From the NCBI RefSeq assembly GCF_001692445.1, contig NZ_MAQA01000001.1, positions 124,001 to 188,000 on the forward strand: a stretch of DNA of 64,000 nucleotides. The letters are read 5' to 3'. Below are positions 1,304-15,471 of the stretch, piece by piece. The position numbers and the translations under genes were made by a program. The stretch's first letter is position 1. Each line of letters opens with the position of its first letter. This DNA is from Oerskovia enterophila. Its GTDB lineage: Bacteria; Actinomycetota; Actinomycetes; Actinomycetales; Cellulomonadaceae. The notes below the pieces were generated by a model, which was given only the letters and a program-made list of their open reading frames with translations, made no database searches and had not been told where the DNA came from.

Positions 1304-2047
1304 TCAGACGATCGGGTTGGTCAGCGTCCCGATGCCCTCGATCGTGATCGCGGAGGTCTGGCCGGGGACCACGTGCGCCGACGTGCCGGGCGACCCCGTG
1401 AGGACCACGTCGCCCGGACCGAGCGTCAGGTGCGAGGTCAGGTAGACGAGCTGCTCGACGACGTCCCACGCGAGACCCGACGTCGACGCCTCGGCCTGCG
1501 TGGCGCCGTCGACCTGGACGTCGATCGCGAGGTCCGCGACGCCCGCCACCGCGAGGTCGGTCTCGATCCAGGGGCCGAGCGGCGTGAAGCCGTCGCCGTT
1601 CTTGGACTGCGTGAACTTGTCGTCGAGCGCGCTCTGCTCGTACGCCGTGACGTCGTTGCCGACGGTCCAGCCGAGGATCACGCCGGGGACCTGCTCGGGT
1701 GTGAGGTGGCGGGCCGTGCGGGCGATGACTATCGCGAGCTCGCCCTCGACCACGACCTTGCCCGCGGCGGGGTCCAGGCGGACGGGCTCACCCGGGCCGA
1801 CCACGGTGCGCGCCGACTTGGTGAACGCCTGCGGCGGGACGAGGCGGTCTGCGGGACCGCTGTTGTGGGCCATGCCGAGCACGACGCGCGGTTCGCACGG
1901 GGCCAGGAGGCGAGCGCCGTCGACGGGGTGGGTCTCGCCCGTGCGCTCGAGCCCGGGGGAGTGGTGGTCGACGACCACGGCCCAGACGTCGCCGTCCTGG
2001 ACGACGGGGCGCGGGCCGGTGGGGGTGGCGATCCGAGCGAGTCTCAC
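1304..2047 (-). CDS. Fumarylacetoacetate hydrolase (FAH) family protein
   Basis: The product is a 247-residue enzyme of the FAH / 2-hydroxyhepta-2,4-diene-1,7-dioate isomerase superfamily. These Mg2+-dependent enzymes cleave or isomerise 3-oxo acids and are often oxaloacetate decarboxylases or acylpyruvases. Family features are VVVEGELAIVIA and GNDVTAYEQ, carrying acidic metal ligands, then the KNGDGFTPLGPW segment and the C-terminal LGPGDVVLTGSPGT motif. I chose GTG at 2047 because GGAGG (2060-2056) sits 8 bases upstream and translation begins with the usual VRLARI strand. The frame stays open far upstream, but that is antisense to kup. The gene is divergent from kup. The substrate cannot be read from the sequence. 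Confidence 0.88.
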   Translation of the reverse strand: MRLARIATPTGPRPVVQDGDVWAVVVDHHSPGLERTGETHPVDGARLLAPCEPRVVLGMAHNSGPADRLVPPQAFTKSARTVVGPGEPVRLDPAAGKVVVEGELAIVIARTARHLTPEQVPGVILGWTVGNDVTAYEQSALDDKFTQSKNGDGFTPLGPWIETDLAVAGVADLAIDVQVDGATQAEASTSGLAWDVVEQLVYLTSHLTLGPGDVVLTGSPGTSAHVVPGQTSAITIEGIGTLTNPIV

Positions 2048-2221
2048 GGTGGTCTCCTCCGTCTGCGGTGTCGGCGCGGTCGTGCCGGCTGAGCGTGAGA
2101 CTACAGGAGGTATGACGTCCGATGTGACCATCGGTGTGGCTCGCCCGACGGCCCGGCGAGACACTGGGAACGGCGGGTTCCGCGGTCTCGCGCGGCCCAC
2201 GGCGCGCGGCGAGGAGGCACC

Positions 2222-4147
2222 ATCCCACGCACGGCAGAGGGCTCGGCAGGGAATGAGCGGTCGGTCGGCGGCCTCGCGCTCGTGGGTGCCCTGGGCGTCG
2301 TCTTCGGGGACATCGGCACGTCGCCCCTGTACACGGCGGCGGCCGTCGTCACCACGGCCCGCGGGGCCGGTGTCGAGGCCGACCGGACCTTCGTCTACGG
2401 GATGACCTCGACGATCCTCTGGTCGTTGACGCTGGTCGTCAGCATCCTCTACGTCCGTCTCCTCCTCCGTGCCGACAACGACGGCGAGGGCGGCCTCCTG
2501 GCGCTGCTCGGCCTGCTCAGACGAACCCTCGGCAGAGCTCGTGACGGGCGGCGGGCAACCGTCGTGCTCACCGTGCTCGGGATGCTCGGGGCCGCGATGT
2601 TCCTCGGGGACAGCGTCATCACGCCGGCCATCTCCGTCCTGTCGGCCGTCGAGGGGCTCGAGGTCGTGGAGCCCTCGCTCGCCCGGTTCGTGGTCCCCGC
2701 AGCCCTCGTGATCCTCCTGGGTCTGTTCCTCGTCGAGCGGTTCGGTACCCGGACGATCGGGCGGTTCTTCGGACCCGTCATGGTGCTGTGGTTCGCCACC
2801 CTCGCCGCGTGCGGCGTCCGAGGGGTGGCGCAGACGCCCGAGGTCCTGGTGTCGGTCTCCCCGCACTGGGTGCTGCTCTTCTTCGTCGACCACCCCGCCG
2901 CGGCCTTCCTGTCGCTCGGTGGTGTGGTCCTGGCGGTCACCGGGGCCGAGGCCCTGTACGCGGACCTCGGGCACTTCGGCCGCCGGCCCATCGTGCGCGC
3001 CTGGGCGTTCGTCGTCTTCCCCGCCCTCGCGCTGAGCTACCTGGGTCAGGGCGGGCACATGATCGCCTCACCCGAGGCGGCGCGGAATCCGTTCTTCTCG
3101 CTGGTCCCCGCCCCGCTCACGATCCCCGTCGTCGTCCTGGCGACCCTCGCGACGATCATCGCCTCGCAGTCCGTCGTCTCGGGAGCCTTCTCGGTCGTCC
3201 ACCAGAGCGGGCGCCTGGGCGTCCTCCCGCCGTTGCGCACCGTCCACACGTCCCCCGCCAACAGCCGCCAGATCTACCTGCCCGCCGTGAACGTCCTCCT
3301 GGCTGCGACGGTCCTGCTCGTCGTCGTCACGTTCCGGTCGTCGGCCGCGCTCGCGTCCGCCTACGGCATCGCCGTGACGCTGACCATCTCGATCACCACG
3401 GTCGTGTACCTCGCCCACGGCTGGACGTCCCGACGGCGGCTCACCGGCAGCACGGTCGTCGCGGCCCCGATCCTGGTCGTCGTCCTCGTCTTCCTCGCGG
3501 CCAACCTGGCGAAGGTCGGCTCGGGAGGGTGGCTGCCCCTGACGATCGGCGCCGTCGTGTTCGTCGTCATGGTGACCTGGTGGACCGGGCAACGGCACGT
3601 CGATCGCGGACGGCTCGCCCTCGAGACGACCGTCCAGCGCGTCGAGGACGTCCTCGAGGCGCACGGGTCCGTGACCAGGACCCGCGGAACCGCGGTGTTC
3701 CTGAGCCGGCACAGCGGGGTGGTGCCCCTGGCGCTGCGATCCATGGTCGAGCAGAACCACGCGCTCCAGCGCCACGTCCTGCTCGTGAGCTGGGCGACGG
3801 CCGACCGGCCGACCGTCCCCACGAGCGAGAGGTTCCAAGTGTCGACCGCGGGCAGCGAAGGCGTGGTCCAGGTGATCGCGACGTACGGGTTCCGGGAGCG
3901 CCCCCGGATCGTCCGGCTGCTCAGCCAGGTGCAACGAGCAGCCCCCGACACCATGCGCGGCGTCGACCTCGGCACCGCGACGTACTTCGTCTCGCTCTCC
4001 GTGCCTCGCTCCAGCTACCGCTCCTCGATGCCCCGATGGTCCCAGCGGCTCTTCCTCGGCCTGTCGCGCCTGGTGCCGGACCCCGTCGAGACCCTCGACC
4101 TTCCTCGCGAACGGACGATCGTGCTCGGCCGCGACGTGCCGCTGTGA
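2222..4147 (+). CDS. kup: Kup-family low-affinity potassium transporter
   Basis: K+/H+ symporter of the KUP/HAK/KT family. The hallmark GVVFGDIGTSPLY lies near the N-terminus. About twelve hydrophobic segments follow, including the conserved TGAEALYADLGHFGRRPI and YLGQGGHMI regions, then a cytoplasmic C-terminal domain of about 150 residues ending at 4147. The start is unusual. The first canonical in-frame start is GTG 2282, but that would remove most of TM1, because NERSVGGLALVGALGVVFGD is clearly coding. No ATG, GTG or TTG occurs in frame between 2111 and 2282. GAGGAGG at 2211-2217 lies four bases before an in-frame ATC at 2222, which would give 641 residues with a family-typical N-terminus. 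I use 2222 as the inferred start; 2282 is the conservative alternative. Confidence 0.9.
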   Translation: MPRTAEGSAGNERSVGGLALVGALGVVFGDIGTSPLYTAAAVVTTARGAGVEADRTFVYGMTSTILWSLTLVVSILYVRLLLRADNDGEGGLLALLGLLRRTLGRARDGRRATVVLTVLGMLGAAMFLGDSVITPAISVLSAVEGLEVVEPSLARFVVPAALVILLGLFLVERFGTRTIGRFFGPVMVLWFATLAACGVRGVAQTPEVLVSVSPHWVLLFFVDHPAAAFLSLGGVVLAVTGAEALYADLGHFGRRPIVRAWAFVVFPALALSYLGQGGHMIASPEAARNPFFSLVPAPLTIPVVVLATLATIIASQSVVSGAFSVVHQSGRLGVLPPLRTVHTSPANSRQIYLPAVNVLLAATVLLVVVTFRSSAALASAYGIAVTLTISITTVVYLAHGWTSRRRLTGSTVVAAPILVVVLVFLAANLAKVGSGGWLPLTIGAVVFVVMVTWWTGQRHVDRGRLALETTVQRVEDVLEAHGSVTRTRGTAVFLSRHSGVVPLALRSMVEQNHALQRHVLLVSWATADRPTVPTSERFQVSTAGSEGVVQVIATYGFRERPRIVRLLSQVQRAAPDTMRGVDLGTATYFVSLSVPRSSYRSSMPRWSQRLFLGLSRLVPDPVETLDLPRERTIVLGRDVPL

Positions 4148-4269
4148 GTCGGCCGCACGCGCGCGGGGAAGATCGGCGGGATCTTGCCGATCCGAGCCGG
4201 CGGCAACGCTCCGGACGGCACGCCCGCGAGTGTCGTGCGTCACGAAGAGGCTGGTCAGGCCGTATCGGT

Positions 4270-4299
4270 TTGAGTATCCAGCGAAAACCGTTGTAGTCT
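4270..4299 (+). promoter_or_regulatory. Putative tRNA-Arg promoter
   Basis: TTGAGT (4270-4275) and TAGTCT (4294-4299) have an 18-base spacer and lie about 40 bases before the tRNA. This AT-richer stretch stands out from its surroundings. It is assigned by pattern only. Confidence 0.45.
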
Positions 4300-4336
4300 T
4301 CTCGACGGCTGCTCAAGAGAAATCACGAACAGCCGG

Positions 4337-4409
4337 GCGCCCGTAGCTCAACGGATAGAGCATCTGACTACGGATCAGAAGGTTGGGGGTTCGAATCCCT
4401 CCGGGCGCA
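4337..4409 (+). tRNA. tRNA-Arg(ACG)
   Basis: A 73-base cloverleaf. The acceptor stem GCGCCCG (4337-4343) pairs with CGGGCGC (4402-4408), followed by discriminator A at 4409. The anticodon stem TCTGA/TCAGA encloses the loop CTACGGA with anticodon ACG at 4370-4372, read ICG after A34 deamination. The T-loop is TTCGAAT. The 3' CCA is not encoded (CAG follows), as is usual in actinobacteria. Confidence 0.97.
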
Positions 4410-4414
4410 CAGAA

Positions 4415-4457
4415 CACGAAGGCCAGGAACCGCAAGGTTCCTGGCCTTCGTGCTTTT
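4415..4457 (+). terminator. tRNA-Arg terminator
   Basis: A 17-bp perfect stem (4415-4431 with 4436-4452) is capped by a GCAA tetraloop and followed by CTTTT. It is a classical rho-independent terminator, five bases after the tRNA. It may also serve the convergent GH20 gene. Confidence 0.85.
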
Positions 4458-4471
4458 CGCTGGTCTCTCGA

Positions 4472-7102
4472 TCAGCCGCAGTCCAGCGCCGGGTGGCCGG
4501 CCGTGACCTCGCTCTCGGTGCCCCCCGCCCCGCCCGTCGTGACCGTCACGGTCCCGGCGTCGATCGTCGAGGCACGGGTCGCGAAGGACTGGTGCGCGCT
4601 GGCCCCGGGGGCGACCGCGCTGAACGACTTCTTGCCGGCCGCGGTCACGACCTGGAGGTCGACCGCCACGTCACCGACGTTGACCGCACGGACGCTGATC
4701 ACAACCCTGCCGGCGACGCAGCGCGTGGTCGCGTCGACCTCGACCGTCGCGGGGGCCGGGGAGACCGCGTCCCAGAGCGCACCGACTGCGGCCCGGTCGA
4801 GGGCACCGGTGTAGACCCGCAGGTCGTCGACGTCGACGGCCGCCGCGTCGCTCGCACCCGGCCACCCCGGGGCGTTCAGGAGCCGTCCGAGCTGGGCCAG
4901 CCCGAGCGTCGCGGTACCCGGCACGGTCGAGACCTGCGTACCGTCCGCGTAGACCGTGATGGTCGCGCCGTCCGAGACCAGCGTCAGGTGCACCCACTCG
5001 TCGAGCGGGGTGGCGTACTCGGACCGATGGTCGGCGACGCCGAGCTGCGTGAACCCGACCTTGGCCGTGGCCTTGTACTGCTCGAGCTTGATCGCGGTGC
5101 GCACCCCGGACGAGGTGTCCGAGAGCAAGGCGGAGCTGCTCCTGGCGCCCGTGCGACGGACCCAGGACGCGACCGTCCACGGTCCGCTCACGGGAGCGGC
5201 GCTGAGTGCCACCCCGTCGTCCACGCCGTCGAGGCTGACCGCACCGCCCAGCTGCCCGGGGGTCCAGGTGCCGCCGTCCACCGCGGCCCGCACGCCGGTC
5301 ACGACGTCCAGGGCCGACTGTCCGCTCGTCTCGTCGAAGGTCCAGTGGTGGATCAGCTCGGGCTCCACGGGGACGACGGGCTCCCACTCGACGTCGGGCG
5401 CGCGGAACCACTCGTACCCCAGGGCGTCCCAGCGGTCGTCGTGCTGCGTGAGGCGGGAGAGGAACTCGGTGTAGTCCTTGTCCTGCGCCGGTGACCAGGC
5501 GATCTCGGCGATCGCGGGCATGCGCGGGAAGATCATGTGGTCGGTGTACTGCTCGACCGGGATGAACTGGGAGTGGCTCGTGGGCAGGCTCGTGCTCCCG
5601 CGGTAGGCCCGGTCGGCCCACAGCGAGGCCTCGACCCCCGCGACCTGCTCCTCGGTCACGACCTTGACCGTGCCGTCGGTGCTCGAGAGCTCCGTCACGG
5701 GGTCCCAGTCGTAGGCGCGTCGCAGGTTGACGAGGCCGGCCCACGAGAGGCCGTAGGCCGTCGAGGAGCTGTACTTCATGTCGGTGTAGGACCGGTCGGC
5801 CGGCGACACGACGACACGCGCCCCGGCCGCCAGGGCCGCGCGGACCTCACGGATGTCCGCGCTCTCGGCGCCCACGCCGATCTTGGGACGGTTGACGCGC
5901 CCCTCGGCCCAGTACTGGACCAGGCTGCCTGCGGGCAGGGTCGCCCCCTGTGCCCACTGGTGCCATCCGACGATCGTCTTGCCGTGCTCGGTCGCGATCT
6001 CGTTGGCCATGGCCGTGTACGCCTCGTACCAGCCCGCCGGCGGGTTGGGGACCTCGTCGCCGCCGAGGTGGATGTACTGGCCGGGGTTCTGCGCGGCGAC
6101 CGAGGAGATGACCTTCTCGAGGTAGTCGCGGATGTTCGCCGAGTTGGCCTCGGTCGCGCAGACCATCGGCAGGTTCACGTCGAACCCGTAGTACGGCGCG
6201 GTCGGCACCCCGTCGCACGTGAGGCCCGGGACGGACGCCTGTGCCGCGAGGGTGTGTCCCGGGCCGTCGATCTCGGGGACGATCTCGATGTAGCGCGAGG
6301 CCGCGTACTCGACGATCTCCGCGTAGTCCGCAGGGGTGTAGAACCACGGATCACCCGTGTTGCTGCCCGGGGCCCAGCCGCTCTGCGTCGAGGCGCCGAT
6401 CTCCGTCAGGGCGGGGAGCCCGTCGATCGCGATGCGCCAGCCCTGGTCGTCCGTGAGGTGCAGGTGCAGGGTGTTGAGCTTGTAGAGCGCGATCTGGTCG
6501 ATGTAGCGCTTGACCGCGTCGACGGGGTAGAAGCGGCGGGCGACGTCGAGCATCGCGCTGCGGTACTCGAACCGGGGCTCGTCCTCGATGACGACCGCGG
6601 GGACGACCCAGTCCGCGTCCTGCGCCTGGGTCGCCTCGACCGCTGCGGGGAGGAGCTGACGGAGCGACTGCACACCGTGGAAGAGCCCGGCCGCCGTAGG
6701 CGCGTCGATCGCGACGGCCCCCTCGGAGACGGTGAGGTCGTAGCCCTCGGGGTCCGTCGAGGCGGCGTCGGTCAGGGTGAGCGTGATGGCGCTGGTCGCG
6801 GCCGACGCGTCGGAGACCGGCAACGAGAACCCCGTGGACGGTCGGAGCAGGTCGGCGAGGTACTCGCCGACCGGCGCGGCGTCGTCGGGAGCGACGATCA
6901 CGCTCGTCGGGCCGAGCCGGAACCCGGACCCGGGCCCTCGCTCGAGGCTCACGGGCCTCGGGACGAGCGCGAGGGGTGCCTCGTCCTCGGAGGCGGAGGC
7001 GGGGGCGGCGGACGACCAGGCGGTCGTCGCCACGGCAGGACAGATCAGGGCAAGGGTCACGGCGACGGCTGCGACGCCGCGACCACGGTGCGGGATTCTC
7101 AC
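4472..7102 (-). CDS. Secreted GH20 beta-N-acetylhexosaminidase with LamG and C-terminal CG module
   Basis: Exo-acting hexosaminidase that removes terminal GlcNAc/GalNAc, by family knowledge through substrate-assisted catalysis. Order of parts: Arg-rich signal peptide with a cleavage region near APASAS; GH20 N-domain (about residues 50-175) with GYDLTVSEG; catalytic TIM barrel with YRSAMLDVARRF, HLHLTDDQGWR and the catalytic Asp-Glu in HLGGDEVP (about residue 350); a LamG / concanavalin-like domain (about 575-785) starting LIHHWTFDE; and the shared C-terminal module, with Cys in TTRCVAG and a terminal DCG. I use GTG 7102 because GAGG (7113-7110) is 7 bases from it but only one base from the alternative GTG 7108, so the protein is 876 residues. 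A TetR-type operator lies upstream at 7147-7160. The substrate may be chitin, N-glycan or peptidoglycan. Confidence 0.95.
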   Translation of the reverse strand: MRIPHRGRGVAAVAVTLALICPAVATTAWSSAAPASASEDEAPLALVPRPVSLERGPGSGFRLGPTSVIVAPDDAAPVGEYLADLLRPSTGFSLPVSDASAATSAITLTLTDAASTDPEGYDLTVSEGAVAIDAPTAAGLFHGVQSLRQLLPAAVEATQAQDADWVVPAVVIEDEPRFEYRSAMLDVARRFYPVDAVKRYIDQIALYKLNTLHLHLTDDQGWRIAIDGLPALTEIGASTQSGWAPGSNTGDPWFYTPADYAEIVEYAASRYIEIVPEIDGPGHTLAAQASVPGLTCDGVPTAPYYGFDVNLPMVCATEANSANIRDYLEKVISSVAAQNPGQYIHLGGDEVPNPPAGWYEAYTAMANEIATEHGKTIVGWHQWAQGATLPAGSLVQYWAEGRVNRPKIGVGAESADIREVRAALAAGARVVVSPADRSYTDMKYSSSTAYGLSWAGLVNLRRAYDWDPVTELSSTDGTVKVVTEEQVAGVEASLWADRAYRGSTSLPTSHSQFIPVEQYTDHMIFPRMPAIAEIAWSPAQDKDYTEFLSRLTQHDDRWDALGYEWFRAPDVEWEPVVPVEPELIHHWTFDETSGQSALDVVTGVRAAVDGGTWTPGQLGGAVSLDGVDDGVALSAAPVSGPWTVASWVRRTGARSSSALLSDTSSGVRTAIKLEQYKATAKVGFTQLGVADHRSEYATPLDEWVHLTLVSDGATITVYADGTQVSTVPGTATLGLAQLGRLLNAPGWPGASDAAAVDVDDLRVYTGALDRAAVGALWDAVSPAPATVEVDATTRCVAGRVVISVRAVNVGDVAVDLQVVTAAGKKSFSAVAPGASAHQSFATRASTIDAGTVTVTTGGAGGTESEVTAGHPALDCG

Positions 7103-7146
7103 GGGCACTCCTCATTGAGCGGTCGGGAACCCTTCGAGCCTCAGCC

Positions 7147-7160
7147 ATCCCGACCAGTAT
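7147..7160 (-). promoter_or_regulatory. Putative TetR-family operator at GH20 promoter
   Basis: The minus strand reads ATACTGGTCGGGAT, matching 12 of 14 bases of the palindrome at 11415-11428. It overlaps a CATACT that could be the -10 of the GH20 gene. It lies about 45 bases upstream of the GTG start. Confidence 0.6.
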
Positions 7161-7232
7161 GTCAATATCTGACGGATTACCAGTTCAAACAAGCATGAAA
7201 GTGCACCAAGCCTGCCGAGGGCACGGCAGAGC

Positions 7233-7312
7233 GCCCCGCCCCCGGGGAGTCGGGGGCGGGGCTGAGGACGAGGTCGGCGTCGCTGTCCGACAGAAGAACG
7301 ACGCCGACCTCG
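7233..7312 (-). terminator. Two hairpins downstream of the ThuA-fusion gene
   Basis: The first to be transcribed is a 14-bp perfect stem (7269-7282 with 7299-7312, 16-base loop). The second is a 12-bp GC stem (7233-7244 with 7251-7262). Both lie between the stop of the 1304-residue gene and the GH20 promoter, and would insulate GH20 from read-through. Confidence 0.6.
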
Positions 7313-7371
7313 ACCTCGGGTGGGGCCTCGCGCGCCTCAGGAGTGGAAGACGCGCGCGGCCTCGTGAAGCG

Positions 7372-10300
7372 TCAACCGCAGTCGACCGCCTCGTAGCCGG
7401 TCACGATCTGCGTGGTGATCGGACCGGATCCTGTGTCGCCCGTCGCGGTCACGGTGACCTCGCCGGCCGGGATGCTCGCGGCACGGGTCGCGAAGGACTG
7501 CTGGGCCGACTTCCCGGGAGCCACGCCCGCGAAGGTCTTGCGGCCGTGCGGGGTCTCGACGACGACGTCCACGGGGACGTCCTCACCGTTGACCGCCCGA
7601 ACCGTGAGCGTCGTACGCCCCGCGACGCACTTGGCGGTGACCGTCGCCGTGACGGCGAGCTCGGGCTGCTCGACATCGGGCACGTCGAGGAAGATGCCGC
7701 CGATCACGGCGTTCGGGCCCGTGGCCTTGTCGGCCTTGACCCGGACCGAGGACTCGATGCGGTAGGTGAGCCACACGCCCGCCGCGTTGTCCGCGACCGA
7801 GAACGCCGGGTAGAGGACCGAGCCGTCGGCCCGCAGGACCTGGACGTCCTGCGTCCTCGCCGTGTCGTGGCTGTTGACGTAGACCGACAGGTCGTAGGCC
7901 GAGCCCTCGGGGACCGTGACGTCGACCGCCGCCCCGGCACCGAACCAGGTCGATGCGCGACGCGCGGCGCCGTCGGGCGGGACCTGGAGCGCCGAACGCT
8001 TGGTGGTGCTCTGCTCCCACGTCCAGGCCTGCGTCCCCGTGACCGGAGCCACCGTGACGCCCTGGGGCAGCTGCGTCCCGATCTGAGGGATCGCGTAGCC
8101 CGCCGTGCCGTACTTCCCGATCCAGTCACCCTGGGTCGAGGTGTCCTGACGAGGTGCGCCCTCGGGCGGGACGCCGACGCCGGACCCGACGGCCTCGAAC
8201 ACGTCGAGCGTCATCGACCAGTTGACCCCGGGGTTCGAGCGGAAGACCAGGTAGACGTCGTGCGTCCCGGCGGGGGCGGTGATCGGCGTCGGGTCCGTCT
8301 CCTTGAACGTGAACCATCCGCCCGTGCTGTTCACGGGCGTCGTGGCCACGAGCTGACCGGTCGGCGAGCCCAGACGCATCTCGATCCGCCCGCCTCCCTC
8401 GGGACCGGCCGACACGCGGTAGCGCACGGCGTCGATCCCCTGGAAGTTCATGTCCTCGTAGCGCAGCCAGTCGTCGTCCTGGATGTCGCCGACGTACTGA
8501 CCGAGCTCGGCCGCCGCGTTGTTCTCGACCGCGACCCCCTTGACCTCGTCCCAGTAGTGCGCCTGGAAGCGCGTGGGGCGGTAGACGTTGGTCGCGCTCG
8601 TCGTGATCGGCTGGACGCCCGCGGCCCCGCCCTTGTCGGTGTAGCGCGCGTCGATGACCCAGAACGCGTCCGCCTCGAGGTGTCCCTCGTCGAGGATCGT
8701 CGAGGCCTCGCCCTCGCACGCGTTGACGGGCAGCGTGGGGTGCGCGTGCTCGTCGTGGCCCAGGGCCGGCTGGACCGTGACGTCCTTGCAGTCGATCTGG
8801 CCGTCCTCGGCGTCGGTCACCTCGACCTTCCACGGCAGGACGTCGTTCCAGCGGAAGAAGCTGCCGTTCGGCGGAGCCGTGATCGTCACGACCGGGCTCG
8901 TGTTGCCCACCACGATCGGGACCGTGGCGGTACCCGTCTTGGCGGACTCCGTCTTCTCCGTGACCGTCAGGCGCGCCTCGAAGTTGCCGTTGGTCGTGTA
9001 GACGTGGGTCGGGTTCTGCTCGGTCGAGGTGCTGCCGTCGCCGAAGTCCCAGGCGAACTCGAGCTCGTCGCCGTCACGGTCGACGGTGCCCTCGCTCGAG
9101 AACGTCACGGACAGCGGGGCGAGACCGGTCGTGACGTCGGCCGTGGCCTGGGCCGTGGGGGCCCTGCCGTCGGCCGCGTAGTCGACGCGGTACAGGCCCG
9201 AGTTGGGGTTGTCACGGCCGAAGCCGCCGCCCCACTCGAGGAGGTACAGCGCGCCGTCGGGCCCGAACTGCAGGTCGAGCGGCGAGAGGAACTGCTGGCT
9301 CGAGAGCACCGGGTTGATCGCGAGCAGCGAACCGTCCGCGGCCAGCGGGAACTCCTTGATGAAGTTGCGCCCCCACTCGAAGAACAAGGGCGTGCCGCTG
9401 AAGTACTCGGGCCACTTGCGGTCCGAGTCGAGCGCCTCGTCGAAGTGGTAGACGGGACCAGCCATGGGGGCGCCCGCACCGCTGCCGAGCTGCGGGAACT
9501 CGGCCGAGGCGCCGTACGAGTAGTAGACCTCGGCGGGGACCGACGGCGGGAGCTCGGTCAGGCCGGTGTTGTTCGGGGAGGTGTTGACCGGGTTGGCGCA
9601 GTCGAACTTCGCACCCGACGTGCTCGTCACGAAGTCGAAGTCGTTGTACGCGATGTTGTTCGCGTGGCAGTACGGCCAGCCGTAGTTCCCCGGGGCCTTG
9701 ATGGACTGCCACTCGACGTAGCCCGCGGGGCCACGGTTCGGGTTGGCGCTGCCGGCGTCGGGCCCGTAGTCGGCGAGGTAGACCGTGCCGTCGACGTCGA
9801 CCGTGAAGCGGAACGGGTTGCGGAAGCCCATCGCGTAGATCTCGGGACGGGTCTTGTCCGCGGTGTCCTCGGCCTCCGGGAAGAGGTTGCCCTCGGGGAC
9901 CGAGTAGGTGCCGTCCGGCTCGGGCGTGATGCGCAGGAGCTTGCCGCGCAGGTCGTTGCTGTTGGCCGACGTGCCCTGGGCGTCGAAGTGCGCGCGGCCC
10001 GGACGCTCGTCGATCGGGGTGTAGCCCGAGGACTCGAACGGCACCACGTCGTCGCCGACCGACAGCCACAGGTTGCCCTGGCCGTCGAAGCGCAGCGTGC
10101 CGCCCGTGTGCCCGATCTCCTTGTCGTCACGGCCGGCGGGGATCTCCAGCATCACGACCTCGGAGTCGAGCTTCATGGTGTTGCCCTCCATGGTGAAGCG
10201 GGAGAGCCGGTTGACCGAGCCGCCGTCCTGGGGGGAGTAGTAGAGGTAGACCCAGTCGTTCTGCTCGAACTGCGGGTCGAGCGCCAGGCCGAGCATGCCG

Positions 10301-11286
10301 TCCTCGCCGCCCCCGTACACGGGGATCGTCGCGGCCGTCACGGTGCTCTTGAGCTCCGGGTCGTAGATCCGGACCTGGCCGCGGACGAGCTCGGTGAAGA
10401 AGACGCGGCCGTCGCCCGCGACCGCGATGCCCCAGGGGGCCGAGGTGTTGGTGTCGAGCGGCACCTTGTCGAAGTTGTCCCATACCGTGCCGCCGCACGC
10501 TCCGGGCTCGACGCCCGCCGCGTAGCGGATGCCGCCGAGGGCGTGCTTGCGCACGTTCTCCTCGCTGTACGACGACTTGGCGTGGCCGACCGAGGTGACC
10601 CAGGTCCGGCCGCCCTCGTAGTCCGAGCACCACGTCACGGGGTGGTCGAGCATGCGTCCGGGGGTCGAGGTGGGGACGCTCGTCGGGTCGAGCTGGGCCA
10701 GGACGTGCTTGTCGCCACGGACCGACTTGGTGAAGCCGTACCACTCCTCGTTGCGCTCCCAGCGCTCGGGCAGGTCGGCGGTCGACGGGTGCTCGCGGTC
10801 GACGACGGTCATCTCGCCCGGCGTCCCGGCGGCGGAGTGCGCGGTGAACTCGGTGCCGATGAGCGCACGGTAGAACGGGAAGCCCGGCTCCATGTCGAGC
10901 GGGTTGTGCATGGCGACGACGCCGCCGCCCCCGCGCACGTACTTCTCGAAGGCCTTCTCCTCGGCCGGGTTCCAGACGTCCCCGGACGCCTGGGCCAGCA
11001 CGATCACGTCGAAGTCCGCGAGGCCCTCGTCGGTGAAGAGCGTCGAGTCGGTCGCCTGGACGACCTCGAATCCGCCCGCCGCAGCGAGCTCGTCCCACAT
11101 GGCCTTGGCCTCGGGGACCGAGTCGTGCACGAACCCGGCCGTCTCCGAGAAGATCAGCGCCTTGAACTCCGGGTTCTCGGGGTGCTCGTGCCCCTCGTGG
11201 GCGACGGCCGGCGCGGTCAGCACCCCGGCCAGTCCTGTCGACAGTGCCAGGCAGGCCGCGATGGCTGCCCCTCTGCGCGTTCTCAT
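7372..11286 (-). CDS. Secreted ThuA / PQQ-type sugar dehydrogenase / PKD / CBM fusion with CG module
   Basis: A 1304-residue secreted multidomain protein. After a signal peptide (cleavage near APAVAHE) come: a ThuA-like trehalose-utilisation domain (about 40-265: FKALIFSETAGFVHDS, GGGVVAMHNP); a glucose/sorbosone-type PQQ-dependent dehydrogenase propeller (about 270-705: GGEDGMLGLALDP, GHTGGTLRFD, YAMGFRNPFRF); a PKD domain (about 708-790, WDFGDGS); an Ig-like segment; a CBM6-like domain (about 900-1030, DDWLRYEDMNF); a jelly-roll segment of a type found near rhamnosidases (about 1045-1190); and the terminal Cys...DCG module. ATG 11286 has GGGAG 6 bases upstream. It is divergent from the sugar isomerase, with a shared operator between them. 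Oxidation of extracellular sugars or glycosides is likely, but cofactor and substrate are unproven. Confidence 0.92.
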   Translation of the reverse strand: MRTRRGAAIAACLALSTGLAGVLTAPAVAHEGHEHPENPEFKALIFSETAGFVHDSVPEAKAMWDELAAAGGFEVVQATDSTLFTDEGLADFDVIVLAQASGDVWNPAEEKAFEKYVRGGGGVVAMHNPLDMEPGFPFYRALIGTEFTAHSAAGTPGEMTVVDREHPSTADLPERWERNEEWYGFTKSVRGDKHVLAQLDPTSVPTSTPGRMLDHPVTWCSDYEGGRTWVTSVGHAKSSYSEENVRKHALGGIRYAAGVEPGACGGTVWDNFDKVPLDTNTSAPWGIAVAGDGRVFFTELVRGQVRIYDPELKSTVTAATIPVYGGGEDGMLGLALDPQFEQNDWVYLYYSPQDGGSVNRLSRFTMEGNTMKLDSEVVMLEIPAGRDDKEIGHTGGTLRFDGQGNLWLSVGDDVVPFESSGYTPIDERPGRAHFDAQGTSANSNDLRGKLLRITPEPDGTYSVPEGNLFPEAEDTADKTRPEIYAMGFRNPFRFTVDVDGTVYLADYGPDAGSANPNRGPAGYVEWQSIKAPGNYGWPYCHANNIAYNDFDFVTSTSGAKFDCANPVNTSPNNTGLTELPPSVPAEVYYSYGASAEFPQLGSGAGAPMAGPVYHFDEALDSDRKWPEYFSGTPLFFEWGRNFIKEFPLAADGSLLAINPVLSSQQFLSPLDLQFGPDGALYLLEWGGGFGRDNPNSGLYRVDYAADGRAPTAQATADVTTGLAPLSVTFSSEGTVDRDGDELEFAWDFGDGSTSTEQNPTHVYTTNGNFEARLTVTEKTESAKTGTATVPIVVGNTSPVVTITAPPNGSFFRWNDVLPWKVEVTDAEDGQIDCKDVTVQPALGHDEHAHPTLPVNACEGEASTILDEGHLEADAFWVIDARYTDKGGAAGVQPITTSATNVYRPTRFQAHYWDEVKGVAVENNAAAELGQYVGDIQDDDWLRYEDMNFQGIDAVRYRVSAGPEGGGRIEMRLGSPTGQLVATTPVNSTGGWFTFKETDPTPITAPAGTHDVYLVFRSNPGVNWSMTLDVFEAVGSGVGVPPEGAPRQDTSTQGDWIGKYGTAGYAIPQIGTQLPQGVTVAPVTGTQAWTWEQSTTKRSALQVPPDGAARRASTWFGAGAAVDVTVPEGSAYDLSVYVNSHDTARTQDVQVLRADGSVLYPAFSVADNAAGVWLTYRIESSVRVKADKATGPNAVIGGIFLDVPDVEQPELAVTATVTAKCVAGRTTLTVRAVNGEDVPVDVVVETPHGRKTFAGVAPGKSAQQSFATRAASIPAGEVTVTATGDTGSGPITTQIVTGYEAVDCG

Positions 11287-11414
11287 CTGTGCTCCCTCAT
11301 GTCCGCTCCGTTGCGTCGGGCCCCTGCGATCTGTTCATACGGCGATCTGGCAACTTTTGATCGATGGTCGTCAGAACGTGATCGTGATGCTAGTGTCAGC
11401 CGCACCACATTGCA

Positions 11415-11428
11415 ATACTGGTCAGTAT
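11415..11428. promoter_or_regulatory. Palindromic TetR-family operator, divergent promoter
   Basis: ATACTGGTCAGTAT consists of perfect 6-bp half sites (ATACTG/CAGTAT) around a GT centre. It lies 113 bases before the isomerase ATG and 129 bases before the ThuA-fusion ATG. It is the best copy of a motif repeated at 7147, 11502 and 12485. Confidence 0.7.
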
Positions 11429-11501
11429 GGTGAAGACGTGCAAGGCTGCATGGCCTGAGGGAATCTCAACGATGAGGCCCGCAGAACCGGATCTCAGACC
11501 C

Positions 11502-11515
11502 GCACCGACCAGTAC
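11502..11515 (-). promoter_or_regulatory. Second TetR-type site before sugar isomerase
   Basis: The minus strand reads GTACTGGTCGGTGC and keeps the ACTGGTC core. It lies 25 bases before the ATG at 11541, next to the RBS, so a bound repressor could block transcription or initiation. Confidence 0.5.
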
Positions 11516-11540
11516 GTTCCTATCCCGATGGAGGGGTCCC

Positions 11541-12434
11541 ATGCCACAGATCGGAATCGGTTTCCACACCGACGCCTTCAACTCCAGCCACAAGTCGTTC
11601 GAGCAGGCGTTGGCCTGGGCGCAGGAGAACGACGTCCACTACATCGAGCCGGGCGTGATCGAGGGCGCCTGCTGGATCCACGGGCTCGGCTACTTCCCGC
11701 ACATCTCGCTCCTCGAGGACCCGGCGCTGCTCCGCAAGAAGATGGAGCGGTACGGCGTCGAGTTCTCCCAGATCGACGCGGCCTACCCGCTGTCCGGTCG
11801 GGACGGGCTCACGGTCGGCGTCCCGTACGTCCAGAAGGCCATCGCCTGGGCCGCGCTCGCGGGCTCTCCCCGCGTCGCGACGACCGACGGGCTCTACAAG
11901 CCCGAGGGGCTCGAGGACCGCGAGGCCCTCGACCTCATGAAGCGCAGCTACGGCGAGATCATCCGGGTCGCCGAGGCGCACGAGGTCGTCGTGACGATCG
12001 AGGTCCACGGGTACTTCACGACCAAGGCCGACTGGCTCGCGGAGATGCTCGCGTTCTGCGGGGACTCGCCGTGGCTGCGCCTGAACCTGGACACCGGGAA
12101 CACCTTCATCGCCGGCAACGACCCGGTCCAGTTCGCCGACCGGTTCCTCGACAAGATCGACCACGTGCACATCAAGGACGTCTCGCAGTCGCTCGCCGAC
12201 TCTGTCCGTGGGGGCGCGACGGGCATCGCGATCAGCCACGTGGCAGCAGGGGACGGCGTGAACGCCGAGAACATCCGGCAGATCCTCGCGAAGCTCAGCG
12301 ACAACGGGTTCGACGGCGTCCTGAGCATCGAGTGCGAAGGGCAGGGCGGGCCGATGCTCGCGGACTCGTTGTCGTGGCTCCGCAAGGAGGTCGCGGCGGC
12401 CGGGTTCACCGAGCGCGTGCCCGCGTTCGCCTGA
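11541..12434 (+). CDS. Sugar phosphate isomerase/epimerase-like TIM-barrel protein
   Basis: A 297-residue xylose-isomerase-like TIM barrel (AP-endonuclease-2 fold). Metal-site-type motifs are TIEVHGYF, LNLDTGNTFIAGNDP, DHVHIKDV and SIECEGQGG, which supply the Glu/Asp/His ligands usual for this superfamily. Enzymes of this group isomerise or epimerise sugars, keto-sugars and inositols. ATG 11541 is preceded by GGAGGGG at 11530-11536. It is divergent from the ThuA/dehydrogenase gene and under the same operators. Together they resemble 3-keto-glycoside (trehalose thuA/thuB-like) catabolism, in which an oxidised sugar is processed by a cytosolic isomerase-like enzyme. The specific reaction is inference. 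There is no signal peptide, so it should be cytosolic. Confidence 0.88.
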   Translation: MPQIGIGFHTDAFNSSHKSFEQALAWAQENDVHYIEPGVIEGACWIHGLGYFPHISLLEDPALLRKKMERYGVEFSQIDAAYPLSGRDGLTVGVPYVQKAIAWAALAGSPRVATTDGLYKPEGLEDREALDLMKRSYGEIIRVAEAHEVVVTIEVHGYFTTKADWLAEMLAFCGDSPWLRLNLDTGNTFIAGNDPVQFADRFLDKIDHVHIKDVSQSLADSVRGGATGIAISHVAAGDGVNAENIRQILAKLSDNGFDGVLSIECEGQGGPMLADSLSWLRKEVAAAGFTERVPAFA

Positions 12435-12440
12435 GCTCCC

Positions 12441-12476
12441 CCGGTCGCGCGTCGGCAGGTGCGCGACGGGGACCGG
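12441..12476 (+). terminator. Hairpin after sugar isomerase gene
   Basis: The stem GTCGCGC/GCGCGAC (12444-12450 with 12461-12467) is extended by CCGGTC/GACCGG with small mismatches. It lies just after the TGA at 12434. Confidence 0.45.
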
Positions 12477-12484
12477 CCTGTTCA

Positions 12485-12498
12485 GTACCGACGAGTAT
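12485..12498 (-). promoter_or_regulatory. TetR autoregulatory operator
   Basis: The minus strand reads ATACTCGTCGGTAC, matching 11 of 14 bases of the 11415 palindrome. It lies between the upstream gene and the TetR RBS (AAGGAGG, 12501-12507), as expected for autoregulation. Confidence 0.6.
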
Positions 12499-12519
12499 GG
12501 AAGGAGGTAGGGTGGCGTC

Positions 12520-13146
12520 ATGCCGACGTCCTCGCCCACTGTTGCCAAGCCCGACGAGCTCGCGCTCGCAGCGTTCACGCTGTTCTCGACGCGAGGCATC
12601 GCCGGGGTCAACATGGACGCGATCGCGGCAGGCGCCGGGGTGACGAAGGGCAGCCTGTACTGGCACTACTCCTCGAAGAAGGAGGTCGTGCTCGCAGCGT
12701 GCGGGGTCTACTACCGCCAGTGGCGAGAGGCGATCACCGCCGCGACGGAGCAGTCGACCGGCGCGTTCGCGAAGGTCGAGGCCGCCGTGGAGTACTCGGT
12801 GCGCAGCTGCCTGCTGGACGATGCGAACCGAGTCTTCACGATGGAGATCGTCGCGCAGGCGCTCTACGACCAGGACGTCCGCGTGAGCTGGGCAGGCTTC
12901 CTGGACGAGGCCGAGCGGTACTTCCTGGGACTGGCCCATCGCGCGGTCGGTGCCGGAGAGCTCGAGTGCGACGACGTGGACAGCGCGGTCAGCGTGATGT
13001 TCTCCGCGATGGAGGGCATCAAGCAGATCTCGTTGTTCCGGCCGCAGTCCTGTGCGCCGGAGAGCGAGCTCCGGATCAGGGCCCAGCTCCTGTCGCTCCT
13101 CGGCACCCCCGTCCCGGGGCGTCCCGGGAAGGCCTCGAAGGCTTAG
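12520..13146 (+). CDS. TetR/AcrR family transcriptional regulator
   Basis: A 208-residue repressor. The N-terminal helix-turn-helix (about residues 12-58) reads LALAAFTLFSTRGIAGVNMD followed by AIAAGAGVTKGSLYWHYSSK, the TetR DNA-binding signature ending in the typical YxHYxSK. The all-helical ligand and dimer domain follows. AAGGAGG at 12501-12507 precedes ATG 12520. The gene lies on the same strand after the sugar isomerase, and the promoter gap carries a copy of the palindrome found at the GH20 and ThuA-fusion/isomerase promoters. I therefore infer that it represses this glycan set. The inducer is unknown, possibly a sugar or keto-sugar. A strong hairpin at 13185-13223 ends the unit. Confidence 0.93.
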   Translation: MPTSSPTVAKPDELALAAFTLFSTRGIAGVNMDAIAAGAGVTKGSLYWHYSSKKEVVLAACGVYYRQWREAITAATEQSTGAFAKVEAAVEYSVRSCLLDDANRVFTMEIVAQALYDQDVRVSWAGFLDEAERYFLGLAHRAVGAGELECDDVDSAVSVMFSAMEGIKQISLFRPQSCAPESELRIRAQLLSLLGTPVPGRPGKASKA

Positions 13147-13223: not shown

Positions 13224-13358
13224 CACCCCCGAACACCCCGTTCGACGCGGCGTACCCGTTTCCTGCCGGGCGGCTCGCCGCTGCCGTCATCACCCCGTTC
13301 AGCACCACCGTTCAGCGCATCCATCAGACGACGACGTCTCGATCATCAGGAGCAGGAA

Positions 13359-14582
13359 ATGCGTTCTTCTCGAGTTCTCATGGCAGGGGCCGCGACCGCG
13401 GCACTGCTGTTCACCGCTGCGTGCACCACCGACGCCCCCACCGACGCGGTCCCCGAGGCGGGGAGCACGGCCTCGGAGGAGGCCGGGGCCGACGAGTCCG
13501 GTGCGAACAGCCAGTGGTTCGTGCAGGCCGACTATGAGCGCCAGCTCGCGCAGCGCTCGGCGGTCCCCGAGGGGCCGGCCGACCAGCCGTGGCTGCAGGC
13601 GATCGACCCCGAGTACGTGGACACCGCGCAGTACGCCAAGGAGGGGGGCAAGAAGCTGTGCTTCTCCAACGCCTCGCTGTCCAACCCCTGGCGTGTGACC
13701 GCCTTCATCACGATGCAGCAGCAGGTCGAGGTCCTCAAGGCCTCGGGCGAGATCTCGGAGTTCCGCGTCTCGGACGCAGCGGACGACGACAACAAGCAGA
13801 TCACCGACATCCAGGCGTTCGTCGAGGCCGGTGACTGCGACGCGATCATCATCTCGCCCTCGACCACCGCGACCCTGACCCCGGCGGTCGAGGCGGCGTG
13901 CGAGAGCGGCAAGCCCGTGATCGTGTTCGACCGCGGCGTCAACACCGACTGCATGGTCACCTACATCCACCCGATCGGTGGCTACGCCTACGGCGCCGAC
14001 GGCGCCGAGTTCCTCGTGGACAACCTCGAGCCCGGCTCCAAGGTCCTGGCGCTGCGCGTGCTGCCGGGCGTCGACGTGCTCGAGAACCGTTGGGCCGCCG
14101 CGGACAAGATCTTCTCCGACAGCGAGATCGAGGTCGTGGGCCAGGAGTTCACCGGTGGTGACGGCGCCAAGATCAAGGACATCGTGACGCAGTACCTGCA
14201 GCGCGGTGACGTGGACGGCATCTGGATGGACGCCGGCGACGGCGCCGTCGCGGCGGTCGAGGCGTTCGAGGACGCCGGCAAGCCCTACCCCGTGTTCATG
14301 GGCGAGGACGAGCTGAGCTTCCTGCGCAAGTGGCAGGAGACGGACATGACCGCGCTCGGGACGGTCTACTCGACGTTCCAGTGGCGTACGCCCGTGCTCG
14401 CGGCCCAGAAGATCTGGAACGGCGAGCAGGTCCCGGTCGAGTGGGTCCTCCCGCAGTCGCCCATCACCGAGAAGGACCTCGACAAGTACCTCGAGGCCAA
14501 CAAGGACATGCCGTCGCTGCACTACGCCAAGTTCGGTGGCGAGGACCTGCCCGGCTACCCGGAGGCCTGGTCCGACCGCTGA
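13359..14582 (+). CDS. Sugar ABC transporter substrate-binding lipoprotein (orphan)
   Basis: A 407-residue periplasmic-binding-protein type 1 (ribose/galactose-like) sugar receptor. The signal peptide ends in a lipobox-like FTAAC, giving Cys 22 for lipidation. A Ser/Glu/Ala-rich linker follows, then the two-lobe domain with LSNPWRVTAF, DAIIISPSTTATLTPAVEAA, KPVIVFDRGV and DGIWMDAGDG. ATG 13359 is chosen because AGGAG is 6 bases upstream; longer in-frame starts lack a leader. No ATPase or permease gene is adjacent: a TetR gene lies upstream and a convergent acetyltransferase downstream. It must use a transporter encoded elsewhere or act as a sensor. The ligand is not readable. Confidence 0.9.
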   Translation: MRSSRVLMAGAATAALLFTAACTTDAPTDAVPEAGSTASEEAGADESGANSQWFVQADYERQLAQRSAVPEGPADQPWLQAIDPEYVDTAQYAKEGGKKLCFSNASLSNPWRVTAFITMQQQVEVLKASGEISEFRVSDAADDDNKQITDIQAFVEAGDCDAIIISPSTTATLTPAVEAACESGKPVIVFDRGVNTDCMVTYIHPIGGYAYGADGAEFLVDNLEPGSKVLALRVLPGVDVLENRWAAADKIFSDSEIEVVGQEFTGGDGAKIKDIVTQYLQRGDVDGIWMDAGDGAVAAVEAFEDAGKPYPVFMGEDELSFLRKWQETDMTALGTVYSTFQWRTPVLAAQKIWNGEQVPVEWVLPQSPITEKDLDKYLEANKDMPSLHYAKFGGEDLPGYPEAWSDR

Positions 14583-14687: not shown

Positions 14688-15395
14688 TCAGAGGACCGCC
14701 TGTGCGCCCGTGAGGTGGGCGGGGTCCGGATCGAGCGCGACGTCGTCTGGCGTGACCCCCACCGACCTGGCGAGCGCCTCGACGTCGCTGCCCTGCAGGA
14801 GCGGCAGCGACTCCCGGACGTGCTCGTCGTCCCAGGTCCACCACCGGGCCCGCCAGAGCAGCTTGCGCCGCAGCGCGTCGAAACGATGGCGCACCACGCG
14901 CCCGTCACCCACGACCACAGCGAAAGGAGCGACGTCCTTCGCGACGACGGCGCGCGCCCCGATGATCGCACCCACCCCGATCTGCACGCCGCCCAGGATG
15001 GTCGACTCGTACCCGGTCCAGACCTCGTGCCCCACGACGGTGTCACCGATCGGCTTCCAGGCGTCGGCCGCGCCGTCGACGAAGTTGAACCCGTACGCGG
15101 TGACCGCGTCCATGTCGTGCCCTTGGTTGCCGCCCAGCAGGAAGGTCGTCCCCGACGCGAACTGGCAGAAGTTGCCGATCACGAGCTTGTCGGTCGGGAC
15201 ACCGTGGTAGGTGGGGGAGTCGGCGAAGAGGTACCGCGCGCGGTCGGCAAAGCTCTCTCGGTGGTAGTGGCCGCTGTACCAGGAGTGTCGTCCCTCCGCG
15301 AGGATGATCCCCGCGTGGTCGAGGACCTCGGGTGAGGTGTCGAGGCGCTCGACCACGGTGAAGTCGGGGAAGAGCTCCCGTGAGGTGGTGTCCAT
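14688..15395 (-). CDS. CatB/Vat-type hexapeptide acetyltransferase
   Basis: A 235-residue left-handed beta-helix acyltransferase of the xenobiotic (CatB/Vat-like) O-acetyltransferase group, which uses acetyl-CoA. Visible family features are WYSGHYHRESFADRARYLF, KLVIGNFCQFASGTTFLLGG with the catalytic-type His in NQGHDMDAVT, and hexapeptide turns such as IGDTVVGHEVWTGYESTI and IGVGAIIGARAVVAKDV. I start at ATG 15395; a TTG at 15431 has no better ribosome site. It is convergent with the sugar-binding protein and on the same strand as the HNH gene, 76 bases downstream of that gene. The true substrate may be a small alcohol or sugar. An antibiotic-resistance role should not be assumed. Confidence 0.85.
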   Translation of the reverse strand: MDTTSRELFPDFTVVERLDTSPEVLDHAGIILAEGRHSWYSGHYHRESFADRARYLFADSPTYHGVPTDKLVIGNFCQFASGTTFLLGGNQGHDMDAVTAYGFNFVDGAADAWKPIGDTVVGHEVWTGYESTILGGVQIGVGAIIGARAVVAKDVAPFAVVVGDGRVVRHRFDALRRKLLWRARWWTWDDEHVRESLPLLQGSDVEALARSVGVTPDDVALDPDPAHLTGAQAVL

Positions 15396-15471
15396 CGGAT
15401 CAGTGCACCCGAACCGGCGCAACGGCGGCAAGGCAATTGAGGAGGCGTGCGGCGGCGCGCCGATCCTCAGG

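Follow-up and report, generated by a model that had tools for sequence, protein, structure and literature searches.

Does a single TetR-family regulator control the sugar-processing genes clustered at this locus, and does its reach extend to the hexosaminidase gene beside them? The locus lies in a 64,000-nucleotide (nt) stretch of Oerskovia enterophila DNA (contig NZ_MAQA01000001.1, positions 124,001 to 188,000), which was analyzed at its full length and is called the window here. A first-pass annotation had reported four palindromic sites in it, all in promoter gaps and one directly before a tetR gene, and had read them as a small regulon that ties a GH20 hexosaminidase, a ThuA-dehydrogenase fusion and a sugar isomerase together. 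We consider it very probable, from the sites and their conservation, that they are operators of the TetR protein encoded at 12520-13146, which would control its own promoter, those of the ThuA-dehydrogenase fusion and the isomerase and, here, that of the GH20 gene. Such a local TetR regulon is new, well supported and ordinary in kind.

Candidate operator sites and the predicted regulator

All four sequences are present where they had been reported, each is intergenic, and the site at 12485 directly precedes tetR. The sites, the gaps that hold them and the flanking genes are listed below, with scores from an operator matrix trained on other species.

4472-7108, minus strand: secreted GH20 beta-N-acetylhexosaminidase (Pfam GH20 4e-71, GH20b 2e-26, Laminin_G_3 2e-15)
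7109-7371: gap between the ThuA-fusion stop and the GH20 start, containing the 7147-7160 site
7147-7160, minus strand: O-GH20, ATACTGGTCGGGAT(GG), in the spacer, immediately following the -35; matrix score 17.7, second best of the window
7372-11286, minus strand: secreted ThuA-GSDH (quinoprotein sugar dehydrogenase-like)-PKD-CBM6 fusion, 1304 amino acids (Pfam ThuA 1e-58, GSDH 5e-33, PKD_4, CBM_6)
11287-11540: divergent gap between ThuA fusion and isomerase, containing the 11415-11428 and 11502-11515 sites
11415-11428, no strand assigned: central operator O-ThuA/isomerase, ATACTGGTCAGTAT, a near-perfect inverted repeat; matrix score 27.1
11502-11515, no strand assigned: secondary, one-sided operator-like site, GCACCGACCAGTAC, 25 bp before the isomerase ATG; matrix score 11.5
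11541-12434, plus strand: TIM-barrel (AP_endonuc_2) sugar isomerase/epimerase-like protein, 297 amino acids (Pfam 2e-29)
12435-12519: gap between isomerase and tetR, containing the 12485-12498 site
12485-12498, no strand assigned: tetR operator, GTACCGACGAGTAT(GG), between the tetR -35 region and -10; matrix score 17.5
12520-13146, plus strand: predicted TetR-family repressor, 208 amino acids (TetR_N PF00440 1.6e-14, 53.8 bits against a cutoff of 24)

The element is a two-fold symmetric inverted repeat, RTACY-N4-RGTAY, with GG nearly always on one side, and the minus orientation given in the first-pass annotation therefore means little. A search of the window for ATACTGGTCAGTAT at up to three mismatches returned four matches against 0.39 expected, a number that none of 100 shuffles reached; these matches represent three sites, one counted on both strands, and the 11502 site falls outside the three-mismatch limit. 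The latter has one good half only (GACCAGTAC), is the same in two other Oerskovia and is degenerate in Cellulosimicrobium and Agromyces; on these sequences it is Oerskovia-specific.

The symmetric matrix was trained only on operators of other species, taken from the ThuA/isomerase and tetR gaps of O. rustica, a second Oerskovia, Cellulosimicrobium, Agromyces, Nakamurella, Microbacterium and an Opitutales metagenome-assembled genome (MAG). It ranks the four window sites first to fourth in the 64 kb (27.1, 17.7, 17.5 and 11.5), with the next best position at 8.1. No orthologue of the GH20 site was among the training operators, so for the site at 7147 the result is independent; for the tetR and 11502 sites related species do have orthologues, and the central site has identical counterparts in the training set. 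Under a first-order model, 64 kb should hold 0.016 sites scoring at least 17.4; for the GH20 gap, at its own composition, the figure is about 0.0001. The matrix scan covered the window, and specificity in the whole genome (4.65 Mb, 114 contigs) was taken from pattern searches. On how common the motif is genome-wide, these searches favor the first-pass annotation: the asymmetric pattern RTACYGRYCRGKATGG has two exact matches in the 4.65 Mb, which are the ThuA operator and O-GH20. Relaxed patterns gave 162 matches, mostly G+C-rich and uninformative.

The AlphaFold model of the TetR protein (predicted local distance difference test score 90) shows an all-helical TetR-like fold over the whole chain. 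The best fold matches reach Z of about 20 (4ich_B: Z 20.5, 190 aligned, 2.4 Å) at only 12-26% identity, and many TetR proteins match at similar Z, with no pointer to a ligand. The protein is a member of no NCBIfam equivalog tested; the best NCBIfam match, the ScbR/gamma-butyrolactone receptor family NF041196 (E 2e-13), scores 50.8 bits against a cutoff of 150, and membership was rejected. The segment GVTKGSLYWH, from the recognition-helix region, is unchanged across 12 homologues with identities as low as 36%, which fits conservation of the operator as far as the Opitutales MAG. An inverted repeat over its own promoter, as befits the family, is found at 12485-12498 and in orthologous promoters. 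Residues C61 and C97 are also invariant in all 12 homologues, with a possible ligand, metal or redox role.

Conservation, co-occurrence and promoter geometry

The operator is kept both in the ThuA/isomerase divergent gap and before tetR in Oerskovia, Cellulosimicrobium, Agromyces and Nakamurella, and the central operator is conserved beside ThuA in 10 loci from 4 genera. The Cellulosimicrobium tetR sites are GTACC/GGTAC versions with a low matrix score (about 8 or less). Microbacterium, without a ThuA fusion at the locus, has the operator in its isomerase and tetR promoters and a second site before the isomerase that scores 17.7. The conserved core thus comprises the ThuA fusion, the isomerase (82-97% identical in relatives) and tetR. 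In the Opitutales MAG, which has sites at 9945-9958 and 10608-10621, a perfect operator, CCATACTAGTCAGTATG, precedes a 50%-identical tetR gene, and ATACTGTATAGTATG overlaps the likely start of a neighboring Gfo/Idh-like oxidoreductase gene, identified by sequence, whose product looks like a Gfo/Idh protein exported by the twin-arginine pathway. A more distant TetR homologue in another MAG adjoins ThuA, Gfo/Idh, GH95 and TIM-barrel genes, and matrix scoring found no recognizable operator beside it. At 1772-4799 on a contig labelled Nealsonbacteria, a distant TetR homologue is followed by ThuA and Gfo/Idh genes; the gene content of this contig is more planctomycete-like or similar, and it is probably mis-binned.

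Regulator and sites also occur together. Among 221 genomes of the family, TetR and the isomerase are found in the same six of six genomes (three Oerskovia and three Cellulosimicrobium). Each of the three TetR-bearing Oerskovia genomes has 3-4 copies of the pattern RTACYNNNNRGTAYGG, two of them at the locus, and the four Oerskovia that lack TetR have no locus-type site, the same pattern giving one shared peptide ATP-binding cassette (ABC) site and one odd match. The sites of the locus are therefore present with TetR and absent without it. No further close TetR was found in a sample of 396 genomes of the order, and no relatives in the plasmid collection. A fifth candidate, ATACTGGCCGGTACGG, precedes the gene for a peptide ABC binding protein. 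All seven Oerskovia have it, the four that lack TetR among them; it is thus independent of this TetR, and we do not count it as regulon evidence. The operator-like CCGTACCGGCCAGTAT (C14:10146-10161), upstream of a peptide ABC binding-protein gene, is likewise conserved in all Oerskovia and also occurs in Cellulosimicrobium (gene beside ychF), irrespective of TetR.

The position of the operators can be read against the following promoter elements.

11387-11392, minus strand: -10 of the ThuA-fusion promoter, TAGCAT
11410-11415, minus strand: -35 of the ThuA-fusion promoter, TTGCAA (TTGACG/TTGCGA in relatives)
12508-12513, plus strand: -10 of tetR, TAGGGT, 6 nt before the ATG

In ten loci the first T of the ThuA -35 is the last T of the operator, and the distance from -35 to -10 is 17-18 bp, with TAGCAT as the -10 apart from two loci with TAGCGT or TACCAT. 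At most tetR loci the operator lies 9-14 bp upstream of a TAnnnT -10. Since this -10 is just 6-8 nt from the likely start, the tetR transcript is probably leaderless, with the operator over the -35 and spacer. These geometries fit steric repression, and the one at ThuA would also allow activation.

The GH20 promoter and competing readings

Three further features bear on the place of GH20 in the regulon.

7137-7142, minus strand: weak candidate -10 of GH20, GAGGCT, placed by alignment with CAGGAT of the Cellulosimicrobium orthologue
7160-7165, minus strand: -35 of GH20, TTGACA, conserved (GTCAGATATTGACA) in the Cellulosimicrobium orthologue
7200-7330, minus strand: two long G+C hairpins between the ThuA gene and GH20 (minimum free energy -93.2 kcal/mol, z -7.0)

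The GH20 protein is laid out as GH20b, GH20, LamG_3 and an unnamed C-terminal domain, and its likely start is a GTG at 7102 preceded by GAGGAG. The hairpins are probable transcription terminators; they are very stable and separate the GH20 promoter from the ThuA stop, so that GH20 probably forms a transcription unit by itself.

GH20 is not a conserved member of the regulon, for it stands at this locus in no other genome examined. The 221 family genomes contain just one close orthologue (67%); it belongs to a Cellulosimicrobium and lies over 1 Mb away from the tetR gene of that genome. When the two promoters are aligned, a common upstream block ends in GTCAGATATTGACA, and the spacer after TTGACA reads TACTGGTCGGGATGG in Oerskovia and GTTTGCCGAGGTGG in Cellulosimicrobium; the latter spacer holds no operator, and no surrounding position scores above 1.4 with the matrix. 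GH20 paralogues at other loci (53% and 39%) have no operator either. From this one pairwise promoter comparison we infer that GH20 came next to the cluster and that its promoter spacer then turned into an operator; with no operator in the orthologue's spacer and no GH20 at this locus in other genomes, the gene looks newly recruited to the regulon. The tie proposed in the first-pass annotation is thus strongly supported across genera for the ThuA fusion and the isomerase, together with tetR, and is plausible for GH20 in this species only. Likewise, the operator in the GH20 promoter would link hexosaminidase activity with sugar oxidation, as a recent lineage-specific addition and not as a defining feature of the regulon.

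Several observations weigh against this reading. The GH20 -10 is poor, and O-GH20 is off symmetry at one key base (GGAT for GTAT) and has no orthologue; the 11502 site is weak; the ThuA operator is centered at about -42, where an activator could act too; and ATACTGGCCGGTACGG shows that even a good match need not be a TetR site. The regulon could be real and yet limited to tetR, the ThuA fusion and the isomerase, with the GH20 site a chance or non-functional resemblance. We regard this as rather unlikely, while giving it appreciable weight: no relative has a GH20 at the locus, the 67% orthologue has no operator, and one half-site of O-GH20 is imperfect beside a weak -10, but only about 0.0001 matches of its score are expected in the gap, it is identical at 15 of 16 bases to the ThuA operator of two other Oerskovia, and it is located within the promoter spacer. 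It is scarcely credible that promoter DNA, being richer in A+T, produced all the repeats by chance. The site-bearing gaps do have 58-71% G+C against 72% for the window, but the gap-composition model and the co-occurrence with TetR speak against it, and the cross-genus conservation already contradicts it.

The GH20 site might instead belong to an N-acetylglucosamine (GlcNAc) regulator of the DasR/NagR type, whose dre consensus is ACTGGTCTAGACCAGT with the half-site ACTGGTC. The site has the same heptamer, GH20 is a typical DasR target, and the genome carries dre-like sites near a phosphotransferase system enzyme I gene and a CUT1 sugar-binding protein gene. Against this, of 16 positions the GH20 site shares 10 with dre and 15 with the Oerskovia ThuA operator, and AYTGGTCTAGACCART at up to three mismatches has no match in the whole window; we have rejected a dre origin and hold it to be very improbable. 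The GntR-family GlcNAc regulons of DasR/NagR resemble the present one in the ACTGGTC half-site and the GH20 target, and differ from it in protein family and operator layout, with no dre in the window. The dre-like sites near the enzyme I and CUT1 genes suggest a separate DasR/NagR-type GlcNAc regulon in the genome. A dual role, in which TetR would activate the ThuA promoter and repress its own gene, is also unlikely, although less so. In ten loci the ThuA operator directly adjoins the -35, as is the case for class II activator sites, but most TetR-family members repress, the tetR and GH20 sites are located in promoter spacers, and the ThuA -35 and -10 elements are fair without help.

Proposed control, neighboring genes and significance

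Under repression by TetR at all these promoters, a TetR dimer would bind RTACY-N4-RGTAY(GG). On the tetR promoter the dimer would cover the -35 to just before the -10, giving autorepression; in the divergent gap it would sit against the ThuA-dehydrogenase -35 and near the isomerase promoter, and at GH20 it would be seated in the -35/-10 spacer. A small molecule, most plausibly a sugar or oxidized-sugar intermediate made or imported by the cluster, would release it. Release would turn on the secreted ThuA-quinoprotein dehydrogenase, the cytoplasmic TIM-barrel isomerase, the regulator and the downstream sugar-binding protein and, in this species only, the secreted GH20 hexosaminidase.

One further neighboring gene is listed here.

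13356-14582, plus strand: lone CUT2-type sugar-binding lipoprotein (Peripla_BP_4 1e-30), downstream of tetR

This gene also comes after tetR in Cellulosimicrobium and another Oerskovia, and the matrix scan of the window found no operator of its own. In Microbacterium a binding-protein homologue lies upstream, accompanied by two permease-type genes, what looks from its sequence like a CUT2 ATPase, and two more TIM-barrel isomerase-like genes. The isomerase itself has a weak IolE-like match, below cutoff. The cluster looks like one for uptake and oxidative or isomerizing processing of a sugar or glycoside. At their C-termini, the ThuA fusion (7375-7671, minus strand) and GH20 (4475-4744, minus strand) carry the same kind of domain, about 95 amino acids long (CVAG... 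to ...DCG) and without a counterpart in Pfam; a phosphodiesterase-like protein adjoining ThuA in Cellulosimicrobium ends in it too. The domain has 30 matches in the genome, nearly all in long open frames, and may serve these proteins in secretion, anchoring or binding. At 14688-15431 on the minus strand lies a hexapeptide acetyltransferase nearest type B chloramphenicol acetyltransferases; its 168.8 bits with the CatB model fall short of the 350-bit cutoff.

TetR, QacR, AcrR and RutR are autoregulated TetR-family repressors with divergent targets. The present system shares with them an N-terminal TetR_N helix-turn-helix, a helical fold and an inverted-repeat operator over its own and divergent promoters, whereas its targets are oxidative and isomerizing sugar enzymes, not efflux or lipid genes. 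Rhizobial ThuA/ThuB are trehalose-utilization genes; the ThuA domain (PF06283) is in common, but at the present locus ThuA forms part of a secreted fusion with a quinoprotein-type dehydrogenase, PKD and CBM6, and tetR lies alongside. In the literature searched we found neither the operator core TACTGGTCAGTA or its complement nor a paper on the combination of ThuA, TetR and operator, and nothing on 3-keto-glucal or on a ThuA-dehydrogenase-PKD fusion.

It is conceivable, and we offer this tentatively, that across phyla a TetR subfamily whose operator hardly varies controls genes of oxidative sugar processing (ThuA, Gfo/Idh or quinoprotein dehydrogenases, and TIM-barrel isomerases), perhaps sensing an oxidized (keto-) sugar, and that the Oerskovia regulon has been caught growing, GH20 having moved in and its spacer having become an operator. 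The interest of the locus lies in this recruited GH20 promoter and in the cross-phylum operator. For an undescribed TetR subfamily that sits with poorly understood ThuA/sugar-dehydrogenase/isomerase clusters, the analysis gives a predicted operator and target set, through which the inducing sugar could be found by a reporter screen. The pair of GH20 promoters, one with and one without the operator, would provide a clean test case for how a bacterial gene joins a regulon.

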